From: Crocinitomicaceae bacterium
Lineage (GTDB): Bacteria > Bacteroidota > Bacteroidia > Flavobacteriales_D > Crocinitomicaceae
Length of the DNA stretch: 64,000 nucleotides
Assembly: GCA_021325675.1 (NCBI GenBank)
Contig: JAJTCM010000001.1
Span: forward strand, 806,001 to 870,000
Direction: 5' to 3'
The notes under the pieces were generated by a model. The model did not search any database. It saw only the letters and a list, made by a program, of their open reading frames with translations, and was not told the origin of the DNA. Of this stretch, positions 7-58,567 are shown piece by piece. A program made the position numbers and the translations under genes. Position 1 is the stretch's first letter; each line of letters starts with the position of its first letter.

Positions 7-1320
7 TTAGATCACACTCCCATACAAATCATAATGATCTGCAGATTCAATGAGTACGTTCGCAAAATCACCGATTCTCACGTGGTTTGCTTCTGATTTT
101 TTGACGAGGACTTCGTTGTCTACTTCGGGGGAGTCGAATTCACTGCGGCCGATGAAGTAATCGCCTTCGGCGCGATCAAAGAGCACTTTGAAGGTTTTGC
201 CAACTTTTTGCTGGTTGAGCTCATAGCTGATGCTGGCCTGGAGTTCCATGATTTTATCGGCGCGCTCGCGTTTCGTTTTTTCCGGAACGTTGTCTTCCAG
301 TGAGTAAGCGTGGGTATTTTCTTCGTGGGAATAGGTAAAGATTCCGAGACGCTCAAAGCGCATGCGTTCCACGAAATCATACATTTCCTGGTAGTCTTCC
401 TCGGTTTCGCCCGGGTAGCCGGCAATTAATGTGGTTCGGATTGCAATACCGGGAGCCTGTGCACGGATCACGTTTACCAGCTCTTCTGTTTTTTCACGGG
501 TAATCCCGCGGCGCATGGATTTCAGTATTTTAGTTGAGCCATGCTGCAAAGGCATGTCGAGGTACAGGCAAACTTTCGGGTTGTCGCGGATCTCATCGAT
601 CACGTCCATTGGGAAACCGGCCGGGAAAGCATAATGCAGGCGGATCCATTCAATTCCTTCCACTTCGGAAAGTTGTTGGATCAGCTCGGCAAGGTTGCGT
701 TTTTTATAGATATCCAATCCGTAATACGTCAGGTCCTGGGCGATGAGCATGAGCTCCTTCACGCCTTGTGCTGCCAGGCTTTTAGCGGATGTTACCAAAT
801 CTTCAATCGGTGTGGAAAGGTGCTTGCCGCGCATCAGCGGAATGGCACAGAATGAACACGGACGGTCACAGCCTTCGGCAATTTTAAAATAAGCGAAATG
901 GGAAGGCGTTGTTAGCAGGCGCTCACCGATCAATTCTTTTTTGTAATCGGCTTTGAGGGTTTTGAGCAAGCGCGGCAAATCACGGGTACCGAAAAAAGCG
1001 TCCACTTCCGGGATTTCCTTCTCCAGGTCGTCCTTGTAGCGCTCGGAAAGGCAGCCTGTTACGTAGAGCTTGTCTACCTGTCCGTCGTTTTTAGCATCCA
1101 CGTAACGCAGGATTGTATCAATAGATTCCTGTTTGGCGTTGTCGATAAAACCGCAGGTATTGATGATCACGATTTCCGCGTCATCATCCAGGGATTCGTG
1201 CTCCACTTCAAATTTATTAGCCTTCAGCTGGGCCATCATGACTTCGGAGTCAAATAAATTTTTAGAGCAGCCTAAAGTGACTACATTGACCTTATTCTTC
1301 CTGAGCGTCTTTGTTTTCAT
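7..1320 (-). CDS. rimO: Ribosomal protein S12 methylthiotransferase RimO
   Basis: Radical-SAM methylthiotransferase predicted to add a methylthio group to the conserved aspartate of ribosomal protein S12. The 437-residue protein has the full family layout. An N-terminal domain carries three cluster cysteines (C18 in LGCSKNLFDSE, C56 in NTCGF, C90 in TGC). The radical-SAM motif CxxxCxxC is at C151/C155/C158 (GCDRPCSFC), and a TRAM-type domain fills roughly residues 375-437. The LGCSKN and AEGCDRPCSFCAIP signatures favour RimO over the tRNA enzyme MiaB. The ATG at 1320 is supported by a TAATTTTG promoter element that ends only 4 nt upstream, so the mRNA is probably leaderless. It stands alone; the next gene is divergent. 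Confidence 0.95.
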   Translation of the reverse strand: MKTKTLRKNKVNVVTLGCSKNLFDSEVMMAQLKANKFEVEHESLDDDAEIVIINTCGFIDNAKQESIDTILRYVDAKNDGQVDKLYVTGCLSERYKDDLEKEIPEVDAFFGTRDLPRLLKTLKADYKKELIGERLLTTPSHFAYFKIAEGCDRPCSFCAIPLMRGKHLSTPIEDLVTSAKSLAAQGVKELMLIAQDLTYYGLDIYKKRNLAELIQQLSEVEGIEWIRLHYAFPAGFPMDVIDEIRDNPKVCLYLDMPLQHGSTKILKSMRRGITREKTEELVNVIRAQAPGIAIRTTLIAGYPGETEEDYQEMYDFVERMRFERLGIFTYSHEENTHAYSLEDNVPEKTKRERADKIMELQASISYELNQQKVGKTFKVLFDRAEGDYFIGRSEFDSPEVDNEVLVKKSEANHVRIGDFANVLIESADHYDLYGSVI

Positions 1321-1324
1321 GGTG

Positions 1325-1332
1325 CAAAATTA
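1325..1332 (-). promoter_or_regulatory. TAATTTTG -7 element of rimO
   Basis: On the minus strand TAATTTTG matches the Bacteroidota TAnnTTTG element. Four bases (CACC) separate it from the rimO ATG, so transcription would start at or next to the A of ATG. I see no convincing -33 TTTG at usual spacing. Confidence 0.6.
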
Positions 1333-7228: not shown

Positions 7229-7236
7229 TATTTTTG
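7229..7236 (+). promoter_or_regulatory. TATTTTTG -7 element of the class III aminotransferase gene
   Basis: TATTTTTG matches TAnnTTTG and ends 5 nt before the ATG at 7242, predicting a leaderless or nearly leaderless mRNA. It follows directly on the terminator hairpin. Confidence 0.55.
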
Positions 7237-7241
7237 TAACC

Positions 7242-8444
7242 ATGAATAACATAAACGATTTTCTCACATTCCAGGGACAAACTAATCCGTTCCCATACCT
7301 GATCGAGGTGGAGCGCGCTTCCGGGGTTTACATTTACGATAAATCCGGGAAAGCGTACATGGATATGATTGCAGGCGTGGCCGTAAACAATATCGGACAC
7401 CGTCATCCGCGGGTGATTGAAGCGATCAGGGAGCAAGTCGACAAGTATTTACATGTAATGGTCTACGGTGAATTCATCCAGGATGCGCAGGTCGGTTTTG
7501 CTAAAAAACTGGCTTCCCTCCTGCCCGGTTCTTTAAATTGCGTTTATACAGTAAACTCCGGTACGGAAGCCAACGAAGCCGCCCTCAAATTAGCCAAACG
7601 CGTGACCGGGAGAACAGAGCTCATCAGTTTCCGGGGATCTTATCACGGCAGTACGCACGGCTCAATGAGTGTATCCGGAAATGAAGTAAAAAAGCAAGCG
7701 TTTCGCCCTTTGCTGCCTGATGTAAAATTTTTGCAATTCAACAATATCCCGGATTTAGAGAAAATCACAAGCAAAACGGCTGGGGTTATTATGGAGACTG
7801 TTCAGGGTGATGCCGGCGTACGTGTTCCAAACCCTGAATTCCTGGCGGCATTGAGAAAACGCTGTTCTGAAGTTGGGGCGCAGCTGATCTTTGATGAAAT
7901 CCAATGCGGGATAGGCCGTACGGGGAAATTGTTCGCTTTTGAGCACTTCAATATCGTTCCCGACATCCTCACTTTAGGAAAAGGGCTCGGCGGCGGCTTA
8001 TCCATTGGGGCGCTGGTTTCTTCCCGCGAAAAAATGAATGAATTTACCTACAACCCGATGCTGGGCCATATCACGACTTTCGGCGGCCACCCGGTGAATT
8101 GCGCAGCAGCCCTCGCCTGCCTGGAAGTGATGGAAACGGAGATCAATTATTCCGAAGTGGAACGTCTCGGAAAACTCCTGGTGGAAATCGTCGGGAAAAG
8201 CCCTGAGATCAAAGCAATCCGCCGGATCGGGATGATGTTTGCCTTTGACATGGAAAGTTTTGAGCGCGTGGAAAAAGTCGTGAAACGCTGTCTCGAAAAA
8301 GGCCTGATCAGCTTTTGGTTTTTATCGCATCCGTATAGCTTCAGGCTTTCACCGCCGTTGAATATTACGGAAGAAGAGATCAGGAAAGCGGGGGAGATTA
8401 TTCTCCATTCAATTCAGGAAACGGCTGATGGAATGAAGAACTGA
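7242..8444 (+). CDS. Class III pyridoxal-phosphate aminotransferase
   Basis: 400-residue fold-type I enzyme of the ornithine/acetylornithine aminotransferase group. Cofactor features are NSGTEANEAA (106-115) for phosphate binding, D218 in IFDEIQCG, and the Schiff-base lysine K247 in LTLGKGLGGG. The frame is open upstream to 7218, but that stretch covers the promoter, so the ATG at 7242 is used. The substrate is not clear: no arginine or ornithine genes are nearby, and the protein resembles the broad aspartate aminotransferase family protein group common in Bacteroidota. It converges on bshA. Confidence 0.85.
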   Translation: MNNINDFLTFQGQTNPFPYLIEVERASGVYIYDKSGKAYMDMIAGVAVNNIGHRHPRVIEAIREQVDKYLHVMVYGEFIQDAQVGFAKKLASLLPGSLNCVYTVNSGTEANEAALKLAKRVTGRTELISFRGSYHGSTHGSMSVSGNEVKKQAFRPLLPDVKFLQFNNIPDLEKITSKTAGVIMETVQGDAGVRVPNPEFLAALRKRCSEVGAQLIFDEIQCGIGRTGKLFAFEHFNIVPDILTLGKGLGGGLSIGALVSSREKMNEFTYNPMLGHITTFGGHPVNCAAALACLEVMETEINYSEVERLGKLLVEIVGKSPEIKAIRRIGMMFAFDMESFERVEKVVKRCLEKGLISFWFLSHPYSFRLSPPLNITEEEIRKAGEIILHSIQETADGMKN

Positions 8445-9847: not shown

Positions 9848-9855
9848 TACATTTG
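9848..9855 (+). promoter_or_regulatory. TACATTTG -7 element of pyrR
   Basis: TACATTTG matches TAnnTTTG and ends 5 nt before the pyrR ATG, so there is essentially no 5' leader in which a pyr attenuator could sit. Confidence 0.6.
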
Positions 9856-9860
9856 CAGCG

Positions 9861-10409
9861 ATGGAAAAGCAAGTCATCCTAAGTTCCAAGCAATTTGAAT
9901 TGACCATTAACAGGCTTTGCCATCAAATCATTGAAAATCACGCAAATTTTGACGAAACGGTACTGATCGGTTTACAGCCGAGGGGTGTTCATGTGCTCGA
10001 CCGCCTGAAAACACAGCTCGAAAGTATCCTCGGCCGGACAATTACGTGCGGCAAGCTTGACATTACGTTTTATCGCGACGATTTCCGCCGGAGGGAAAAA
10101 GCGATTATCCCGAGCGTTACGAACATTGATTTTGTGATCGAAAACAAACAGGTGATCCTGATTGACGACGTTTTGTTTACCGGCCGTACAATCCGTTCGG
10201 GAATTGATGCGCTCATGGCTTTCGGGCGACCGGAAAAAGTGGAATTGCTCACGCTTATCGACCGCCGTTTTACACGTCATTTACCCATCCAGGCGGATTA
10301 TATCGGCAAGTCGATCGATACGCTGACCACGGAGCGCGTGAACGTTGAATGGAAAGAAATTGAAGGCACAGACCAGGTTGTATTATACTCACAGGAAGCA
10401 CATGGATAA
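9861..10409 (+). CDS. pyrR: PyrR: pyrimidine operon regulator / uracil phosphoribosyltransferase
   Basis: 182-residue type I phosphoribosyltransferase of the PyrR family. In Gram-positive bacteria PyrR binds pyr leader RNA; the family can also make UMP from uracil and PRPP. The PRPP motif is at about residues 97-110 (QVILIDDVLFTGRTIRSG), with the family blocks IGLQPRGVHVLDRL and DITFYRDDF. The stop codon overlaps the pyrB start by 8 nt, so the two are co-translated. The promoter element abuts the ATG, leaving no leader, so classical self-attenuation at this operon looks impossible; RNA-binding activity here is unproven. Confidence 0.93.
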   Translation: MEKQVILSSKQFELTINRLCHQIIENHANFDETVLIGLQPRGVHVLDRLKTQLESILGRTITCGKLDITFYRDDFRRREKAIIPSVTNIDFVIENKQVILIDDVLFTGRTIRSGIDALMAFGRPEKVELLTLIDRRFTRHLPIQADYIGKSIDTLTTERVNVEWKEIEGTDQVVLYSQEAHG

Positions 10410-12710: not shown

Positions 12711-12718
12711 TATCTTTG
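12711..12718 (+). promoter_or_regulatory. TATCTTTG -7 element of ribD
   Basis: A perfect TAnnTTTG match ends exactly 4 nt (CTGC) before the ribD ATG, predicting a leaderless transcript. Confidence 0.65.
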
Positions 12719-12722
12719 CTGC

Positions 12723-13757
12723 ATGTACGATGATGAGCTTTACATGCGGCGCTGTATTGAGCTGGCCCAGCTGGGTGCAGGACATGTCGCGCCAAACCCG
12801 ATGGTGGGAGCAGTTATCGTATATCAAAACCGGGTGATCGGCGAAGGATTTCATCAGAAATATGGTGAAGCGCACGCTGAAGTAAATGCTATCAACTCGG
12901 TTAAGGACAGCAGCTTACTTCCAGAAAGCACGATTTACGTCAGCCTGGAGCCTTGTGCCCATTTTGGAAAAACACCTCCCTGCGCAGACCTCATCCTTGA
13001 AAAAAAAATCGGGCGCGTCGTGATCGGCTGCCGTGATTCTTTTGAAAAGGTCGACGGCAAAGGAATCCAGAAACTAAAGGCGAACGGCGTTGAAGTTGTC
13101 GTTGGCGTACTGGAAACCGAATGCCGCACACTGAACAAGCGCTTTTTTGCTTTCCATGAAAAAAAACGTCCTTACGTGATCCTGAAATGGGCCCAAACAC
13201 AGGATGGTTTTATTGACCGGCCGCGAACAGGCCATGCTGCGGGAATCAATTGGGTAAGCTCGACCGAAACCCAAAGCCTCGTTCACCATTGGCGAAGCCA
13301 GGAACCGGCAATTTTAGTGGGGAGAAAAACGATTGAGAACGATAACCCAAGCTTAACCGTGCGCGAAGTGCAGGGACAAAATCCGCTGAGGATCATCATT
13401 GACAGCCAGTTACAGCTTCCGGCTGAATCAACTATTTTTAAGGATGGACTTAAAACACTGGTGTTCAACCGAATTAAGCATGAATCAAAAGAAAACATCA
13501 CCTACTATAAACTGGAAGCGATTGATACACAGCACATTTTAGAAGCTTTATATCAATTAAATATTCAATCGGTTTTTGTTGAAGGCGGTAGCCGTACTTT
13601 GCAGTATTTCCTTGTGAACCACGCCTGGGACGAAGCCCGGATCATTGTTGGGAAAAACAAATTCCAGGATGGTGTAAAAGCGCCGGTGATGCAGGGAGTG
13701 CCCAGGTTTCATGAGAAGTTTTCGGAGGATGAGATTTATTATTACTTCCGGAAGTAA
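12723..13757 (+). CDS. ribD: Bifunctional riboflavin deaminase/reductase RibD
   Basis: Carries out the deamination and then the side-chain reduction of the pyrimidine intermediate in riboflavin synthesis. Residues 1-145 form the zinc deaminase domain: H51/E53 in HAEVNAI, then C78 and C87 in PCAHFGKTPPC. Residues 146-344 form the NADPH reductase domain, with KWAQTQDGFI, ILVGRKTIENDNPSLTVR and the C-terminal VFVEGGSRTLQYFL. The 344-residue length is normal. No other riboflavin genes are adjacent. The promoter element lies 4 nt before the ATG. Confidence 0.95.
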   Translation: MYDDELYMRRCIELAQLGAGHVAPNPMVGAVIVYQNRVIGEGFHQKYGEAHAEVNAINSVKDSSLLPESTIYVSLEPCAHFGKTPPCADLILEKKIGRVVIGCRDSFEKVDGKGIQKLKANGVEVVVGVLETECRTLNKRFFAFHEKKRPYVILKWAQTQDGFIDRPRTGHAAGINWVSSTETQSLVHHWRSQEPAILVGRKTIENDNPSLTVREVQGQNPLRIIIDSQLQLPAESTIFKDGLKTLVFNRIKHESKENITYYKLEAIDTQHILEALYQLNIQSVFVEGGSRTLQYFLVNHAWDEARIIVGKNKFQDGVKAPVMQGVPRFHEKFSEDEIYYYFRK

Positions 13758-23175: not shown

Positions 23176-23203
23176 CAAATTCCTTTGTCTTATATGCTCT
23201 AAC

Positions 23204-23234
23204 TTTGCGTTCCAAAAAGAAATTCTTACTTTTG
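23204..23234 (+). promoter_or_regulatory. gpmI promoter: TTTG-N19-TACTTTTG
   Basis: This is the only promoter in the window with both elements well placed: TTTG at 23204-23207, 19 nt, then TACTTTTG at 23227-23234. It ends exactly 4 nt before the gpmI ATG, predicting a leaderless transcript. Confidence 0.75.
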
Positions 23235-23238
23235 CTGC

Positions 23239-24762
23239 ATGAGCAAAAACGTAGGTTTAATCATTTTAGACGGTTGGGGAATCGGCGACAAAAGCAAGTC
23301 AGACGCCATATTCAATGCGGATACGCCTTATATGGATTACCTGATGCAAGCATATCCGACTGCTACTTTGAAAACTTTCGGTGAAGAAGTCGGCCTGCCT
23401 GACGGACAAATGGGAAATTCGGAAGTCGGCCACCTGAATATCGGCGCCGGCAGGGTTGTTTACCAGGAATTAACCCGCATCAACAAAGCCATCCGCGAGG
23501 GTGAATTTTTCAAAAACGAAGTGCTGCTCGAAGCTTTTCACAAAGCAAAAAACGAAAACAGAACAATCCATTTCATAGGGCTGGTTTCCAAAGGCGGCGT
23601 TCACAGCTCACAGGAACATTTATATGCTTTATGCAAAATGGCGGCTGATTTCGGGATCAGTGAATCTTATATCCATGCTTTTACCGACGGGCGCGATTGT
23701 GACCCGAAAAGCGGCTTTGGATATATGCAGGAATTATTAAGCCCTGAAAATATCCGCCAAACTAAAGTAGCTTCCATTGTAGGCCGCTATTATGCGATGG
23801 ACCGCGACAGGCGCTGGGAACGTATCAAAAAAGCCTACGACGTAATGGTTAATGCCCAGGGACAGCTGTTTGAATCTCCGGCGGCAGTTTTTGAAGCTTC
23901 CTACGCAGCAGGAATTACAGATGAGTTCATTGAACCCGTAGTTCTTTGTGAAAATGGACTGCCTTTGCCGCGGATAAAAGACGGGGATGTCGTTATTTCC
24001 TTCAATTTCCGGACAGACAGGCCCCGGGAGATTTCCGAGGCTTTGACACAGCAGGATTTTCATGAGCAAAACATGCACAAGCTCGCAATTTCGTATTACA
24101 CCATGACCAATTACGATTCCAGCTTTCATAACGTGCGTGTTATATTTGACAAGGACAATCTCAGCAATACCCTGGGCGAAGTACTTTCAAAGCTCAACAA
24201 AAGCCAGGTGCGCATTGCCGAAACGGAGAAATATCCCCATGTCACATTCTTTTTCAGCGGCGGACGGGAAGAAAATTTCCGCCAGGAATCCCGGATACTG
24301 ATCGCTTCACCCAAAGTTGCCACCTATGACCTGCAGCCCGAAATGAGCGCTTATGATGTCCGCGATAAAATTGTCAGTTGTATCCACACCCAAAAACCGA
24401 ATTTCTTTTGTCTCAATTTCGCTAATCCGGATATGGTTGGGCACACCGGTGTTTATGAGGCCATCGTGAAAGCGGTAGAAGCTGTTGATTCCTGCCTGAA
24501 AGACGTTGTTGAAGCAGCCAAAAGTGAAAATTATGAAGTGATTGTCATCGCTGATCACGGTAACGCCGACTATGCAATCAACCCGGATGGAAGCCCGAAT
24601 ACGGCGCACAGCCTCAACCCGGTGCCCTTTGTTTTGGTCACAGAAAGCAAAATTCAGCTCGAAAATGGCATCTTAGCCGACGTCGCCCCTACCATCCTGG
24701 ACCGCATGCAGCTTGCTTCTCCTATAGAAATGACCGGAAAAAGCCTTGTAAAAACAGTTTAA
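23239..24762 (+). CDS. gpmI: 2,3-bisphosphoglycerate-independent phosphoglycerate mutase
   Basis: Metal-dependent enzyme that interconverts 3- and 2-phosphoglycerate in glycolysis and gluconeogenesis. It is 507 residues of the alkaline-phosphatase superfamily. D11 is in ILDGWG. The catalytic serine that forms the phosphoenzyme is S61 in MGNSEVGHLNIGAG. Further metal and substrate motifs are HAFTDGRDCDPKSG, VGRYYAMDRDRRW, FNFRTDRPREIS, NPDMVGHTG and IADHGNADY. The promoter element sits 4 nt before the ATG. It stands alone between the kinase gene and the large T9SS protein gene. Confidence 0.96.
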   Translation: MSKNVGLIILDGWGIGDKSKSDAIFNADTPYMDYLMQAYPTATLKTFGEEVGLPDGQMGNSEVGHLNIGAGRVVYQELTRINKAIREGEFFKNEVLLEAFHKAKNENRTIHFIGLVSKGGVHSSQEHLYALCKMAADFGISESYIHAFTDGRDCDPKSGFGYMQELLSPENIRQTKVASIVGRYYAMDRDRRWERIKKAYDVMVNAQGQLFESPAAVFEASYAAGITDEFIEPVVLCENGLPLPRIKDGDVVISFNFRTDRPREISEALTQQDFHEQNMHKLAISYYTMTNYDSSFHNVRVIFDKDNLSNTLGEVLSKLNKSQVRIAETEKYPHVTFFFSGGREENFRQESRILIASPKVATYDLQPEMSAYDVRDKIVSCIHTQKPNFFCLNFANPDMVGHTGVYEAIVKAVEAVDSCLKDVVEAAKSENYEVIVIADHGNADYAINPDGSPNTAHSLNPVPFVLVTESKIQLENGILADVAPTILDRMQLASPIEMTGKSLVKTV

Positions 24763-24897: not shown

Positions 24898-26655
24898 ATG
24901 CTGCACGAAATAAAGGCAAAGGTATTTCTTTGTCTGTTATTCACTGCTGTCGCAACAGCTTGCATCGGGCAAAGCTGCGGCCAATCCGTTGTTCCACCGG
25001 GCGTGGTTAATGGTGTTGATGTTACTGTTAGTTCATCAGGGAGTGTTTCAACTTATTCAGGTTCATTTACGTCATGTACGACGACGACACCGCCTAATTC
25101 TGTTTATCTCGGACAGATGGGGAGTTTTTCGTATACCATGAATTTCAGTGAGCAAGTAAATGATATTGTTGTTTTTATCACCGCAACCGGCAGTGGTTTG
25201 AACGAAAATTTCATTTTTACCACCAATTCAGGTATTCCTGAGATCAGTGTTGTCGCGACTTGTTTTTCAGTTGTGAACGGCAACGAAATTCTCAGTGGGG
25301 AAAATTCCGGAATTATGGGCGGTGGCGGCGAATTCATTATTTCTGCCCCATCAGCTTATACTTCGGTTACGATTACAGGTTCAGGAGGTGAAAATGGTGC
25401 GCTATTGTCTATATGTTCGAATTCGGTACTTCCGGCTGTGTGCCTTGCCAATGACCAGGTTCCTTCTTTGTCGGCGGCTAACCTGAGCACCGGCTGTGTT
25501 GCTTCCACGGCTAACCTGAGCTCACTTATAGCAAGCAATATTCCTGCGGGAACAGACCTGAGCTGGCATACTGCCGTACCTGTAAGCGACGCAAACCGGC
25601 TGCAAAATACGATTGTAGGGCCCGGAACTTATTACGCGGCTTTTCACGATGCCGTTAACAATTGCTACGGTCCCGAAAAAACGATTTCAGTCACACAGCC
25701 TTTGGGTGAAATATCAGCAGGACAGGATCTTGAAATCTGCCAGGGCGAAAGCATAATCCTCACGGGTTCAGGCGGCAGCAATTATGTCTGGAGCAACAAT
25801 ATACAAAACGGGGTAAGCTTTATCCCTTCTGAAAGCGCTCTGTATACCCTGAACGGGCTGGACACAAACAATTGTCCTCACAGCGACGAGCTTTTTGTTA
25901 TCGTCAACCCGCTTCCAACTGTTTATGCTGGGGCTGATGTGAATATTTGTCCCGGAACGCAGGTAACCCTGGTTGCAAGCGGCGCACTCGTTTATTCCTG
26001 GGAAAAACAAATTCAAAACGGCGTTAGTTTCAGTCCGCTGGAAAGCGACGATTACCTAGTGACCGGCATCGACGTAAATGGCTGTCAGGATACCGATGAA
26101 GTAAACGTAACCGTTCTGCCTCAACCACTTGCCTTATTTGATCCCGGAACTGAACAAATTACAGAGTTGTCCCCTAATGTCAGTCTTTCAAACTCCAGCG
26201 AAGGCGCTGTTTCTTATAATTGGAATTTCGGTGACCTCTCCCCTTTTTCTACGGAGCATGAGCCGGGACATACGTATGACCAGCCGGGAAATTTTGAAAT
26301 CACATTGATTGTCACCAACGATTTCGGCTGCACGGATACAGCAGTCCGGGTGATCGAAATTACAGCTGTTCCCCTTTATTATATACCCAATTCTTTCACA
26401 CCCAACGGTGACGCGCACAATAATGTTTTCAGCCCGGTTTTCAATGAAAGCTTTGTTCCCGGCGACTATGAGCTGTTCGTTTACAACCGCTGGGGCGAAT
26501 TGCTCTTCGAATCTCATGACCCGGAAACGGGCTGGGACGGAACTTACGCCAATCAATCCGTTATGAAGGGCGTATATACCTGGGTAATGGGCTTCCGCTC
26601 TCCTGAGAACGACAAATTCATTCGCAAAAACGGCAGTATTAACTTAATTAAGTAA
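24898..26655 (+). CDS. PKD-domain surface protein with T9SS type B (gliding/CHU_C) sorting domain
   Basis: 585-residue exported protein. The signal peptide is residues 1-26. A Thr/Ser/Gly-rich beta region covers about 27-180. Two tandem Ig-like repeats of about 80 residues follow, both using the pattern QNGVSF-P-x-E-S (SNNIQNGVSFIPSESALYTL and EKQIQNGVSFSPLESDDYLV). A PKD domain covers about 420-495 (YNWNFGDLSPFSTEHEPGHT). The C-terminal type B sorting domain covers about 497-585 (IPNSFTPNGDAHNNVFSPVF, VYNRWGELLFES, GWDGTYANQSVMKGVYTW). It should be carried across the outer membrane by the type IX system and act at the surface, for example in adhesion. Confidence 0.9.
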   Translation: MLHEIKAKVFLCLLFTAVATACIGQSCGQSVVPPGVVNGVDVTVSSSGSVSTYSGSFTSCTTTTPPNSVYLGQMGSFSYTMNFSEQVNDIVVFITATGSGLNENFIFTTNSGIPEISVVATCFSVVNGNEILSGENSGIMGGGGEFIISAPSAYTSVTITGSGGENGALLSICSNSVLPAVCLANDQVPSLSAANLSTGCVASTANLSSLIASNIPAGTDLSWHTAVPVSDANRLQNTIVGPGTYYAAFHDAVNNCYGPEKTISVTQPLGEISAGQDLEICQGESIILTGSGGSNYVWSNNIQNGVSFIPSESALYTLNGLDTNNCPHSDELFVIVNPLPTVYAGADVNICPGTQVTLVASGALVYSWEKQIQNGVSFSPLESDDYLVTGIDVNGCQDTDEVNVTVLPQPLALFDPGTEQITELSPNVSLSNSSEGAVSYNWNFGDLSPFSTEHEPGHTYDQPGNFEITLIVTNDFGCTDTAVRVIEITAVPLYYIPNSFTPNGDAHNNVFSPVFNESFVPGDYELFVYNRWGELLFESHDPETGWDGTYANQSVMKGVYTWVMGFRSPENDKFIRKNGSINLIK

Positions 26656-26660
26656 TTTTG
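26653..26660 (+). promoter_or_regulatory. TAATTTTG -7 element of ung, overlapping the previous stop codon
   Basis: TAATTTTG ends exactly 4 nt before the ung ATG. Its TAA is also the stop codon of the upstream T9SS gene, so the promoter is embedded in a gene end. Confidence 0.55.
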
Positions 26661-26664
26661 GGGC

Positions 26665-27333
26665 ATGTCAATTGCCATCGAAAAGTCCTGGAAAAACGTC
26701 CTGGAGGATGAGTTTTCAAAACCTTATTTTTTGGAGCTGAAGGAGTTCCTAGTCCGCGAAAAACAGCAGTTTACCGTCTACCCGAAAGGCAGTGAGATTT
26801 TCTCCGCTTTCAACCACACTCCTTTTGACCAGGTTAAAGTAGTAATCATCGGCCAGGACCCTTATCACGGCGCCGGCCAGGCGAACGGACTTTCTTTTTC
26901 CGTTAGTCCCGGCATTGCCAAGCCACCTTCTTTGGTGAATATTTTCAAAGAGCTCGAAAGCGATTTAGGGATTCCTGTTCCTAAAACGGGGAACCTCGAG
27001 CCCTGGGCCAATCAAGGCGTATTATTGCTCAACGCAACACTGACCGTTCGCGCAGGAGTTGCCGGTTCTCACCAGAAAAAAGGCTGGGAACTATTTACAG
27101 ACACTGTGATCCAAAAAATATCTGAGCTCAAAGAAAATGTCGTTTTCCTGCTTTGGGGCAATTTCGCTCAGGGCAAGGCTGAGCTGATTGACAGCAATAA
27201 ACATCATATCCTCAAAGCAGCCCATCCTTCACCCCTGGCCCGAGGTGCATTTTTTGGGAGCAGGCATTTTTCCAAAACAAACGCTTTTCTCGAAAGCAAA
27301 GGGCTCAAACCTATCGATTGGCGCGTGGAATGA
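26665..27333 (+). CDS. ung: Uracil-DNA glycosylase, family 1
   Basis: Removes uracil from DNA to start base excision repair. The 222-residue length is normal. The water-activating loop [20 protein letters not shown] carries D65 and H68. [14 protein letters not shown] and the C-terminal [16 protein letters not shown] minor-groove loop are intact. The gene has its own promoter element 4 nt before ATG and overlaps the next glycosylase gene by the ATGA motif, so two uracil glycosylase-type enzymes are made from one mRNA. Confidence 0.96.
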
Positions 27334-37028: not shown

Positions 37029-37673
37029 TTACTTCGTATTCTCCAGCATTGGCACGAAACTGAATTCCCCGAAGCGTTCTTCATGATAATCGTTTTCGCC
37101 GCGTTTGGTAATCCGGATCATTTCCTGTTTTTCGAGATTCCCGACAGGAATAACAAGCACGCCGCCAATTTTGAGCTGGTCAAGTAAGGCTTGCGGCACA
37201 AATGGCGCCCCGCAGGTAATCAATACTTTATCGTAAGGTGCATAGGAAGTTTGACCTTTGTAACCGTCGCCGAAAAACAAACGTGGATTAAAGCCAAAAT
37301 GATGAATGATGTGTTTTGCCTTAACAAAAAGCTCGCGCTGACGCTCAATGCTGAAAACTTTTGCTCCCAGCTGGCATAAAATACAGGTTTGGAAGGCCGA
37401 GCCCGTTCCGATTTCAAGCACTTTGTCGCCCTTTTTTAAATCAAGCAGCTGCGTTTGGAAAGCTACGGTATAAGGATGTGAAATCGTTTGTCCCGCACCG
37501 ATCTGGAAAGCCATGTTGGAATACGCCTGGTTAACGAAAGCCAGGTCCAGGAAGTAATGCCGCGGAATGGCGTCGAAAGCTTCGAGCACCGCTTCACTGG
37601 TGATCCCGCGTTGGCGCAATTCGTCAATCAACTGGCGGCGCATGCCTTTGTGCTTAAAACTGTCAAGGTACAT
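37029..37673 (-). CDS. pcm: Protein-L-isoaspartate O-methyltransferase
   Basis: SAM-dependent repair enzyme that methylates isoaspartyl residues in aged proteins. The 214-residue protein has the Pcm signature: AFVNQAYSNMAFQIGAGQTI (with the family S-x-P replaced by S-H-P), SHPYTVAFQTQLLDL, SAM motif VLEIGTGSAFQTCILCQL, VFSIERQRELF and ILITCGAPFVPQALLDQL. The promoter element TAATTTCG is 4 nt before the ATG. It is divergent from the hypothetical gene at 37872. Confidence 0.92.
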   Translation of the reverse strand: MYLDSFKHKGMRRQLIDELRQRGITSEAVLEAFDAIPRHYFLDLAFVNQAYSNMAFQIGAGQTISHPYTVAFQTQLLDLKKGDKVLEIGTGSAFQTCILCQLGAKVFSIERQRELFVKAKHIIHHFGFNPRLFFGDGYKGQTSYAPYDKVLITCGAPFVPQALLDQLKIGGVLVIPVGNLEKQEMIRITKRGENDYHEERFGEFSFVPMLENTK

Positions 37674-37677
37674 GCTG

Positions 37678-37685
37678 CGAAATTA
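37678..37685 (-). promoter_or_regulatory. TAATTTCG -7-like element of pcm
   Basis: TAATTTCG on the minus strand is one base off TAnnTTTG and ends exactly 4 nt (CAGC) before the pcm ATG, the same spacing as at rimO, ribD, gpmI, ung, the Smr gene and the luxC-type gene. Confidence 0.5.
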
Positions 37686-52904: not shown

Positions 52905-53447
52905 CTATCGTTGCAGGTACAAACGGATCTCCGTAGCGCCTTTGCCGTATTCGAGGTAGGAAGCGTCGTAAAATTCGAGAAACTCCTGCTGGGCGAGATA
53001 ATTACGGATTTCATTCTTCAGCACGCCTTCCCCAACTCCGTGAATGACAACAACTTTCTGGATGCCGTTTGCCCGGGCTTTTGACAAAAATCGCTTGAAT
53101 TCGGACATTTGGGTTTTCATGATCTCAAAATTCGACATGCCGCGGTGGTTATCCGTCAGGGATTCGATGTGTAAATCCAGCTCCCAGTAATCTTTGGCTT
53201 CTGCCGAGCTGCGGTCTTTCTGCACACTGTAATTGGACCGTGTTTTAGGCTGCTCATCTTCTTTCGGGCCGGGATTGTAGTCGTTGTCCTCCATGCTTCC
53301 GTGGATCTTCACGAGGTCCCTGACAAAATATACCTGCTCAAAACCAAAGTCATCGCGTATTTTGACCTGGGTTGCGCTGATGATTTCCGTTACGATACCG
53401 AAACCACTTTCGTGTAAGAATGTTATTTTTTCTCCTGGCTGAAACAT
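52905..53447 (-). CDS. Smr-domain protein
   Basis: 180-residue protein. Residues 1-70 form a small beta-rich domain (GEKITFLHESGFGIVTEIIS, VKIRDDFGFEQVYFVRDLV), as in DUF2027-type proteins. Residues 95-180 are an Smr domain (ELDLHIESLTDNHRGMSNFE, KVVVIHGVGEGVLKNEIRNY and YGKGATEIRLYL), a nuclease-like fold known from the MutS2 C-terminus. The MutS2 ATPase part is absent. A role in DNA or RNA handling is plausible but unproven. The promoter element TACCTTTG is 4 nt before the ATG. Confidence 0.85.
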   Translation of the reverse strand: MFQPGEKITFLHESGFGIVTEIISATQVKIRDDFGFEQVYFVRDLVKIHGSMEDNDYNPGPKEDEQPKTRSNYSVQKDRSSAEAKDYWELDLHIESLTDNHRGMSNFEIMKTQMSEFKRFLSKARANGIQKVVVIHGVGEGVLKNEIRNYLAQQEFLEFYDASYLEYGKGATEIRLYLQR

Positions 53448-53451
53448 AGTA

Positions 53452-53459
53452 CAAAGGTA
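53452..53459 (-). promoter_or_regulatory. TACCTTTG -7 element of the Smr gene
   Basis: A perfect TAnnTTTG match on the minus strand, exactly 4 nt (TACT) before the ATG at 53447, predicting a leaderless mRNA. Confidence 0.6.
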
Positions 53460-57515: not shown

Positions 57516-58555
57516 AAATCAGACAGCCATTTCAACGTGTCCACCCCGTCTGCATAATCCCACAATTCCGGGGACTGGGCTTTTCCGAAAGGAAGATAAC
57601 CGTGACCAACGATGGCCTGGAGATTTTCTTTTTGCTGCGCGATGAAACCTTCCACTTCTTTTTTGTCTGAGTAGCGTTTGTAATAGATCATACCGAGCGG
57701 CGAATGCAAATCTGCCGATTCCCGGAGCAGCAAAAAGCCGTTGTCAAGGATTTCTTCGCGGTTCATCAGGAAAACGGCTTTGTTGTAATCGTAATTGTTG
57801 GCATATTTATGATGGTTCACGATATCGCCGTAGGGGAAAATCCCTTCAAAAAAACGGTCAAGCACGAAATCCTGAGGAACGAACAATTGAGAAACGTTGC
57901 GGCACCCTAAGCCGAAATAGGAAAAAATATCCGATCCGAGGGCGTTTAACTCCTCCCCTGTTTCTGTTCCGTCCAGCACGGCCAATGAAGTGCGGTTGCG
58001 GCGAAAAATATGCGGGTATTTCCCGAAATAGCTTTCAAAATAGTGCAGGGAATTATTGCTTCCTGTAGCGATTACGGCGTCAATTTCGCCTAGTCTTCCT
58101 GCGGAAATGGTGATCTGCTGCTTCAACTCCGGTTCAAACTGGAACAAAGCATTCAGCAAGGCCGGCAAAAGCGTTTGATCGGATGAGCTGAGCTTCACCA
58201 CAGCATGATGTCCGCTGACGACAACCGAAAGCAGATCGTGGAAACCCACCAGCGGAATGTTTCCCGCCATGATCAGTCCAACGCGTTTTGGAGCAGCTGT
58301 AAACTCGTACGGAGCTGTCCATTTTTCCAGGTTTTTATCTTTGAGGAGCTTTCCCCAGGCTGTGAGCGACTGGCGTACATTTTCTACGGTAAACCATCCG
58401 TTCAGGTGGAATTGCTTATTAATCAGCGCACGAATCGTATCGTATTCTTCTTCGGTGATCCCGATGCTGAAGCCCGGCCATTCGTTGTTGGCACCCAAAT
58501 GGTCCAGTACCAGGGAAAGCTGGTGAAATGCCGGGATTGAATTTGTTTTTTTCAC
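57509..58555 (-). CDS. LuxC-type acyl-CoA reductase family protein
   Basis: 348-residue protein of the LuxC acyl-CoA reductase family (aldehyde dehydrogenase superfamily). Recognisable blocks are [60 protein letters not shown] and the active-site region [17 protein letters not shown], with the catalytic cysteine in GLGCRN. It would reduce an acyl-thioester to aldehyde. The start is GTG at 58555, 4 nt after a TAATTTTG element. It is divergent from a ferredoxin gene, which suggests electron supply but proves nothing. Confidence 0.85.
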
Positions 58556-58559
58556 GGTA

Positions 58560-58567
58560 CAAAATTA
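58560..58567 (-). promoter_or_regulatory. TAATTTTG -7 element of the LuxC-type gene
   Basis: A perfect TAnnTTTG match, exactly 4 nt (TACC) before the GTG start, as at rimO; this also supports GTG as the start. Confidence 0.6.

Follow-up and report, generated by a model that had tools for sequence, protein, structure and literature searches.

A 4-nt spacing between TAnnTTTG boxes and start codons predicts leaderless mRNAs in a member of the Crocinitomicaceae

Results

TAnnTTTG boxes next to start codons in a 64-kb window

The stretch of DNA analysed (the window) comprises 64 kb, with a GC content of 45%, of the 3.57-Mb genome of a Crocinitomicaceae bacterium. The GpmI protein placed this genome closest, among named relatives, to Crocinitomicaceae and related Flavobacteriales. 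Seven genes in this window had been predicted to carry a TAnnTTTG box, or a box with one mismatch, that ends exactly 4 nt before the start codon. The element was found in its predicted place at each of them; the box is exact at six genes (rimO, ribD, gpmI, ung, the Smr-domain gene and a LuxC-like gene with a GTG start) and has one mismatch at pcm (Table 1). The number of nucleotides between the end of the box and the start codon is referred to here as d. Four additional genes had been credited with spacings of 3 to 6 nt. The spacings found were 5, 5, 6 and 3 nt, but these genes do not form one class, since only 4 and 5 stand out in the distance distribution described below.

Table 1. TAnnTTTG boxes and start codons in the window (coordinates are window positions)
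Gene	Span	Strand	Box	Spacer or d	Start codon	Assignment or remark
ribD	12711..12725	+	TATCTTTG, 12711-12718	CTGC	ATG 12723	Predicted leaderless; RibD equivalog TIGR00326
rimO	1318..1332	-	TAATTTTG, 1325-1332	CACC	ATG 1320	RimO TIGR01125
gpmI	23227..23241	+	TACTTTTG, 23227-23234	CTGC	ATG 23239	TIGR01307
ung	26653..26667	+	TAATTTTG, 26653-26660	GGGC	ATG 26665	ung equivalog
Smr-domain gene	53445..53459	-	TACCTTTG, 53452-53459	TACT	ATG 53447	Pfam Smr
LuxC-like acyl-CoA reductase gene	58553..58567	-	TAATTTTG, 58560-58567	TACC	GTG 58555	Pfam LuxC, weak but above cut-off
pcm	37671..37685	-	TAATTTCG (one-off), 37678-37685	CAGC	ATG 37673	PCMT; weaker case
Aminotransferase gene	7229..7244	+	TATTTTTG	d = 5	ATG 7242	Predicted leader 0-1 nt
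ORF 9861 (pyrR in the original prediction)	9848..9863	+	TACATTTG	d = 5	ATG 9861	Predicted leader 0-1 nt
Probable hemE (original prediction)				d = 6	ATG 55862	
EamA gene (original prediction)	16595		With mismatch	d = 3		
gpmI, second box	23200..23207	+	TAACTTTG (exact)	d = 31		Possible additional leadered promoter

The two boxes upstream of gpmI, at d = 31 and d = 4, suggest a putative tandem arrangement of a leadered and a leaderless promoter. The ung box overlaps the end of the upstream gene (26653-26665), its initial TAA serving as the stop codon of that gene.

Within the window, an ATG was present at N4 after five of the 61 TAnnTTTG sequences (binomial p = 0.0035). When the count was tied to gene starts, five were seen compared to approximately 0.06 expected from shuffled sequences (p ~7e-9).

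The distance from box to start codon has a one-base-sharp peak

Gene-linked statistics were obtained from an 827-kb sample of the same genome, consisting of the window and 763 kb in three stretches, in which 671 genes were called with a simple in-house coding-potential caller; whole-genome figures are pattern counts. Each TAnnTTTG was paired with all in-frame ATGs close to a gene start and the distances were recorded, and no start was picked by means of the motif.

Across the 671 genes the distribution was bimodal, with a spike at d = 4, a smaller peak at d = 5, a valley, and a broad hump at approximately 14-30 nt. The numbers of ATG sites at d = 0 to 3 were 0, 1, 0 and 2, followed by 25 at d = 4, eight at d = 5 and one to five at each distance from d = 6 to 13; the hump at d = 14-30 reached 18. 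One hundred dinucleotide-preserving shuffles of the upstream sequence gave a mean of 0.77 ATG sites at d = 4, with a maximum of 4, and the neighbouring distances (d = 1-3 and 6-10) had a mean of 2.9. The spike therefore was approximately 9-fold over the neighbouring distances and approximately 30-fold over the shuffles, and it was absent when scrambled and mutated boxes were used in the same 827-kb sample. Three more genes had a GTG start at d = 4, which brought the d = 4 share to approximately 4% of genes (28/671); d = 4-5 accounted for approximately 13% of the gene-linked boxes (33/256). In the whole genome there were 118 N4-ATG matches compared to 206 over N7-N10 (51.5 per distance; p = 5e-12). 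The fixed spacing claimed in the original prediction is real and one base sharp, and it exceeds shuffled upstream sequence, which was the test proposed with that claim.

Boxes with one mismatch had been counted as the same signal, a view that was not borne out. Summed over all one-mismatch boxes, d = 4 held 11 sites and most distances held 8-18, so these boxes were rejected as extra leaderless promoters. Because of this lack of an excess, pcm and the EamA gene are without support from the statistics alone.

A peak of this kind could in principle reflect real promoters combined with misplaced start codons, translation beginning downstream after a normal short leader. The ribD gene would fit this explanation, since a further in-frame ATG is located 21 nt downstream and would give d = 25, within the leadered hump. 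However, the first in-frame ATG of the ORF was the d = 4 ATG in 24 of 25 genes, and another in-frame ATG within 45 nt was rarer among the d = 4 genes (1/25) than among genes overall (105/647, 16%). Furthermore, the rimO start (ATGAARACNAAR) was present in all 30 family members compared, and a peak one base in width is not expected from misplaced starts. Misplaced starts cannot account for the d = 4 spike, and we regard this explanation of the boxes as very improbable.

The boxes resemble ordinary sigma-A promoters

TAnnTTTG is the sigma-A -7 box of the Bacteroidota; it occurs as six exact copies at the d = 4 genes of the window and as 256 gene-linked copies in the sample. In Flavobacterium johnsoniae 4 or 5 nt separate this box from the start of the transcript, a G is present at -5, and a -33 TTTG element is much less evident (PMC6847099). 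In F. psychrophilum the box occupies positions -12 to -5 (PMC9723704), so that a 4-nt spacer would place +1 on the first base of the start codon.

The base composition downstream of the box was determined for 140 leadered promoters (d = 14-32). The frequency of C was 41, 33, 29 and 24% at offsets 0, 2, 3 and 4 after the box and approximately 12% from offset 5 on; the enrichment did not go past the fifth base downstream of the box. Since the C-rich stretch extends up to offset 4, a transcription start 4-5 nt downstream of the box is probable for this genome as well. The spacers of the predicted leaderless genes had the same C-rich pattern in a stronger form, and 89% of them had a C or a T at position -1. 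Leadered genes were A-rich at -9 to -12 before the ATG (51-69% A), a stretch that in the predicted leaderless genes is filled in part by the box itself.

Over their first 40 nt, the d = 4 coding regions had slightly more structure (-4.0 kcal/mol) than leadered ones (-2.6 kcal/mol; p = 0.003). Less-structured 5' ends were considered as a special leaderless feature and rejected, the opposite being seen with a small effect.

A fixed distance to the start codon is also a property of ribosome-binding sites, and the element might be a translation signal that is read in the mRNA by the ribosome rather than a promoter. We find this hardly credible, since TAnnTTTG is the established -7 box of the phylum and is also found upstream of many other genes, at distances spread broadly over 14-30 nt and with a similar composition, A/T-rich upstream and C-rich downstream.

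From these spacings we infer that the 5' ends of the d = 4 transcripts lie at the start codon in this genome. The -7 box would be placed so that +1 is the A (or G) that opens the start codon, and a 5-nt spacer would yield a leader of 0-1 nt. On such mRNAs the ribosome and the initiator tRNA would recognise the 5'-terminal AUG or GUG directly, and initiation would proceed without the A-rich leaders of other genes; this mode of initiation is carried over from other organisms. We consider it highly probable (approximately 0.87) that the d = 4 boxes are ordinary Bacteroidota sigma-A promoters that give rise to predicted leaderless mRNAs, translated without a leader. The original prediction of leaderless mRNAs is upheld to the extent that the spacing fits the published distance from the -7 box to +1, which makes leaderless 5' ends the natural expectation; other claims that accompanied it are unsupported.

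The spacing is conserved for rimO

Sixty genomes of the family were searched for rimO, ribD, ung, the Smr-domain gene and a leadered control gene, and the upstream sequence was read at the 30 best loci for each. For rimO the box was located at exactly d = 4 in 15 of 30 loci, that is, in this genome and in 14 of 29 relatives (p = 5e-13 against the 4% background), with the flanking DNA diverged. In four other relatives the rimO box was at d = 17-27; intermediate distances were not seen at any of the 30 best loci. The leadered control gene had no box at d = 4 or 5 and had one at d = 17-21 in 4 of 30 loci.

The remaining genes were more variable. Exact boxes at d = 4 were present upstream of ribD in 4 of 29 relatives, with three more at d = 5 and a further eight one-off boxes at d = 4, and upstream of ung in 5 of 29 relatives; the Smr gene had a d = 4 box in none of the relatives examined, its spacing being unique to this genome. 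Universal conservation of d = 4 consequently was rejected. For gpmI, boxes at d = 4 or d = 5 were found in some relatives. In these relatives the putative leaderless spacing has been retained at rimO and undergoes turnover at other genes.

Two further observations were made in the relatives. The one-off ribD boxes were mostly TAnnTTCG, which was often found with the same 4-nt spacing upstream of this gene (loci L152-L180), a hint that TAnnTTCG may be a tolerated variant of the box in this family. In relatives with a gpmI box 4-5 nt upstream (L007, L012-L018), the box often was located at the very end of an apparent preceding coding sequence, which makes gpmI in relatives hard to read.

Expression of these genes may come mainly from further upstream, by operon read-through or from a distal promoter, with the 4-nt box being minor or fortuitous in individual cases. 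Individual genes are compatible with this explanation: gpmI has its second box, TAACTTTG, at d = 31; ung starts 9 nt after the preceding same-strand gene, with its box overlapping that stop codon; ribD starts 27 nt after the preceding same-strand gene; and the Smr spacing is not conserved. As a group, however, the genes form a spike that is approximately 9-fold over the neighbouring distances and 30-fold over the shuffles, and at most of the d = 4 genes the preceding same-strand gene, if any, is more than 60 nt away and a second exact box is absent within 110 nt. We therefore regard upstream expression as unlikely, although it is the most serious of the alternatives, and favour leaderless promoters at d = 4.

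Functions of the d = 4 genes

The 28 d = 4 genes include rimO, the gene for the CCA-adding enzyme, gpmI, clpX, lpxD, bioA, nadC, ribD and maf, as well as ung, truA, purN, and genes for a DEAD-box RNA helicase, acyltransferases, a histidine kinase and several unknowns. It had been suggested that they represent a class of housekeeping or repair genes with shared translation behaviour. In a small comparison that counts annotation rather than expression, and from which one d = 4 gene crossing a stretch boundary was omitted, a curated NCBIfam cut-off was passed by 10 of 27 d = 4 genes and by 8 of 30 random leadered genes, so that there was no enrichment (Fisher p = 0.57). This result, the turnover of the ung spacing and the uniqueness of the Smr spacing lend no support to such a class.

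Occurrence in other Bacteroidota

An excess of N4 over N7-N10 was observed in several Crocinitomicaceae and related Flavobacteriales (1.3-2.7x), and also in Allomuricauda, Dyadobacter, a Saprospiraceae genome and Siphonobacter (3.3x). By pattern counts, it was absent from three Bacteroidales-type genomes (UBA5349, Paludibacter and Rikenella), Kapabacteria and Ignavibacteria. In a 191-kb sample of one genome of the same class (G114) there was a gene-linked spike at d = 4, with eight sites compared to none at d = 0-3 and two at d = 5.

Raw N4 counts also were high over neighbouring distances in a family of another class of the phylum (f24; genomes G143, G135 and G100). This family was rejected as a second hot spot, since the boxes in 191 kb sampled from G143 were scattered from d = 3 to d = 7 without forming a clear spike.

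Discussion

A leaderless minority is already known in the phylum. In F. psychrophilum 5.5% are leaderless (PMC9723704), in F. johnsoniae leaders of 10 nt or less make up 13% (PMC6847099), and in Bacteroides thetaiotaomicron approximately 3.7% of 5' UTRs are shorter than 10 nt (PMC7366714). The shares of approximately 4% and 13% reported here fall within this range, and the present analysis adds a lineage, not a mechanism. The two Flavobacterium species resemble this genome in their TAnnTTTG box and in having a minority of transcripts with no or very short leaders; their 5' ends were mapped or predicted, whereas the result for this other family is a prediction from sequence, based on a spacing spike and its conservation. 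B. thetaiotaomicron likewise shares the phylum and the box, with few short 5' UTRs, but the Bacteroidales-type genomes tested had no N4 excess, unlike the family studied here.

Leaderless genes in the Actinobacteria and Deinococcus-Thermus, which average 19% and 39%, respectively (PMC3160421), are similar in that a promoter box precedes the start codon by a short, constant interval; they differ in the Pribnow-type (TA-like) box and in the much larger share of genes involved. The survey that reported these averages sought Pribnow-type boxes only and, by its own statement, may undercount the leaderless genes of the Bacteroidota (PMC3160421).

It is possible, although we put it forward tentatively and think it somewhat less likely than not to be correct, that in this family, in Siphonobacter and in G114 leaderless initiation has expanded as a separate mode beside A-rich leaders, with orthologues such as rimO switching from a leaderless form to one with a leader of approximately 13-23 nt, or back, without intermediates. 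If this is true, a switch without intermediates would imply selection against very short leaders where ribosomes ignore Shine-Dalgarno sequences.

In several lineages of the Bacteroidota, in which the ribosomes hide their anti-Shine-Dalgarno sequence, a rule of TAnnTTTG, 4 nt and ATG would predict leaderless genes from sequence alone, and also would help to settle start codons in annotation. The d = 4 genes, rimO first, represent defined natural candidates for studying leaderless initiation by these ribosomes.
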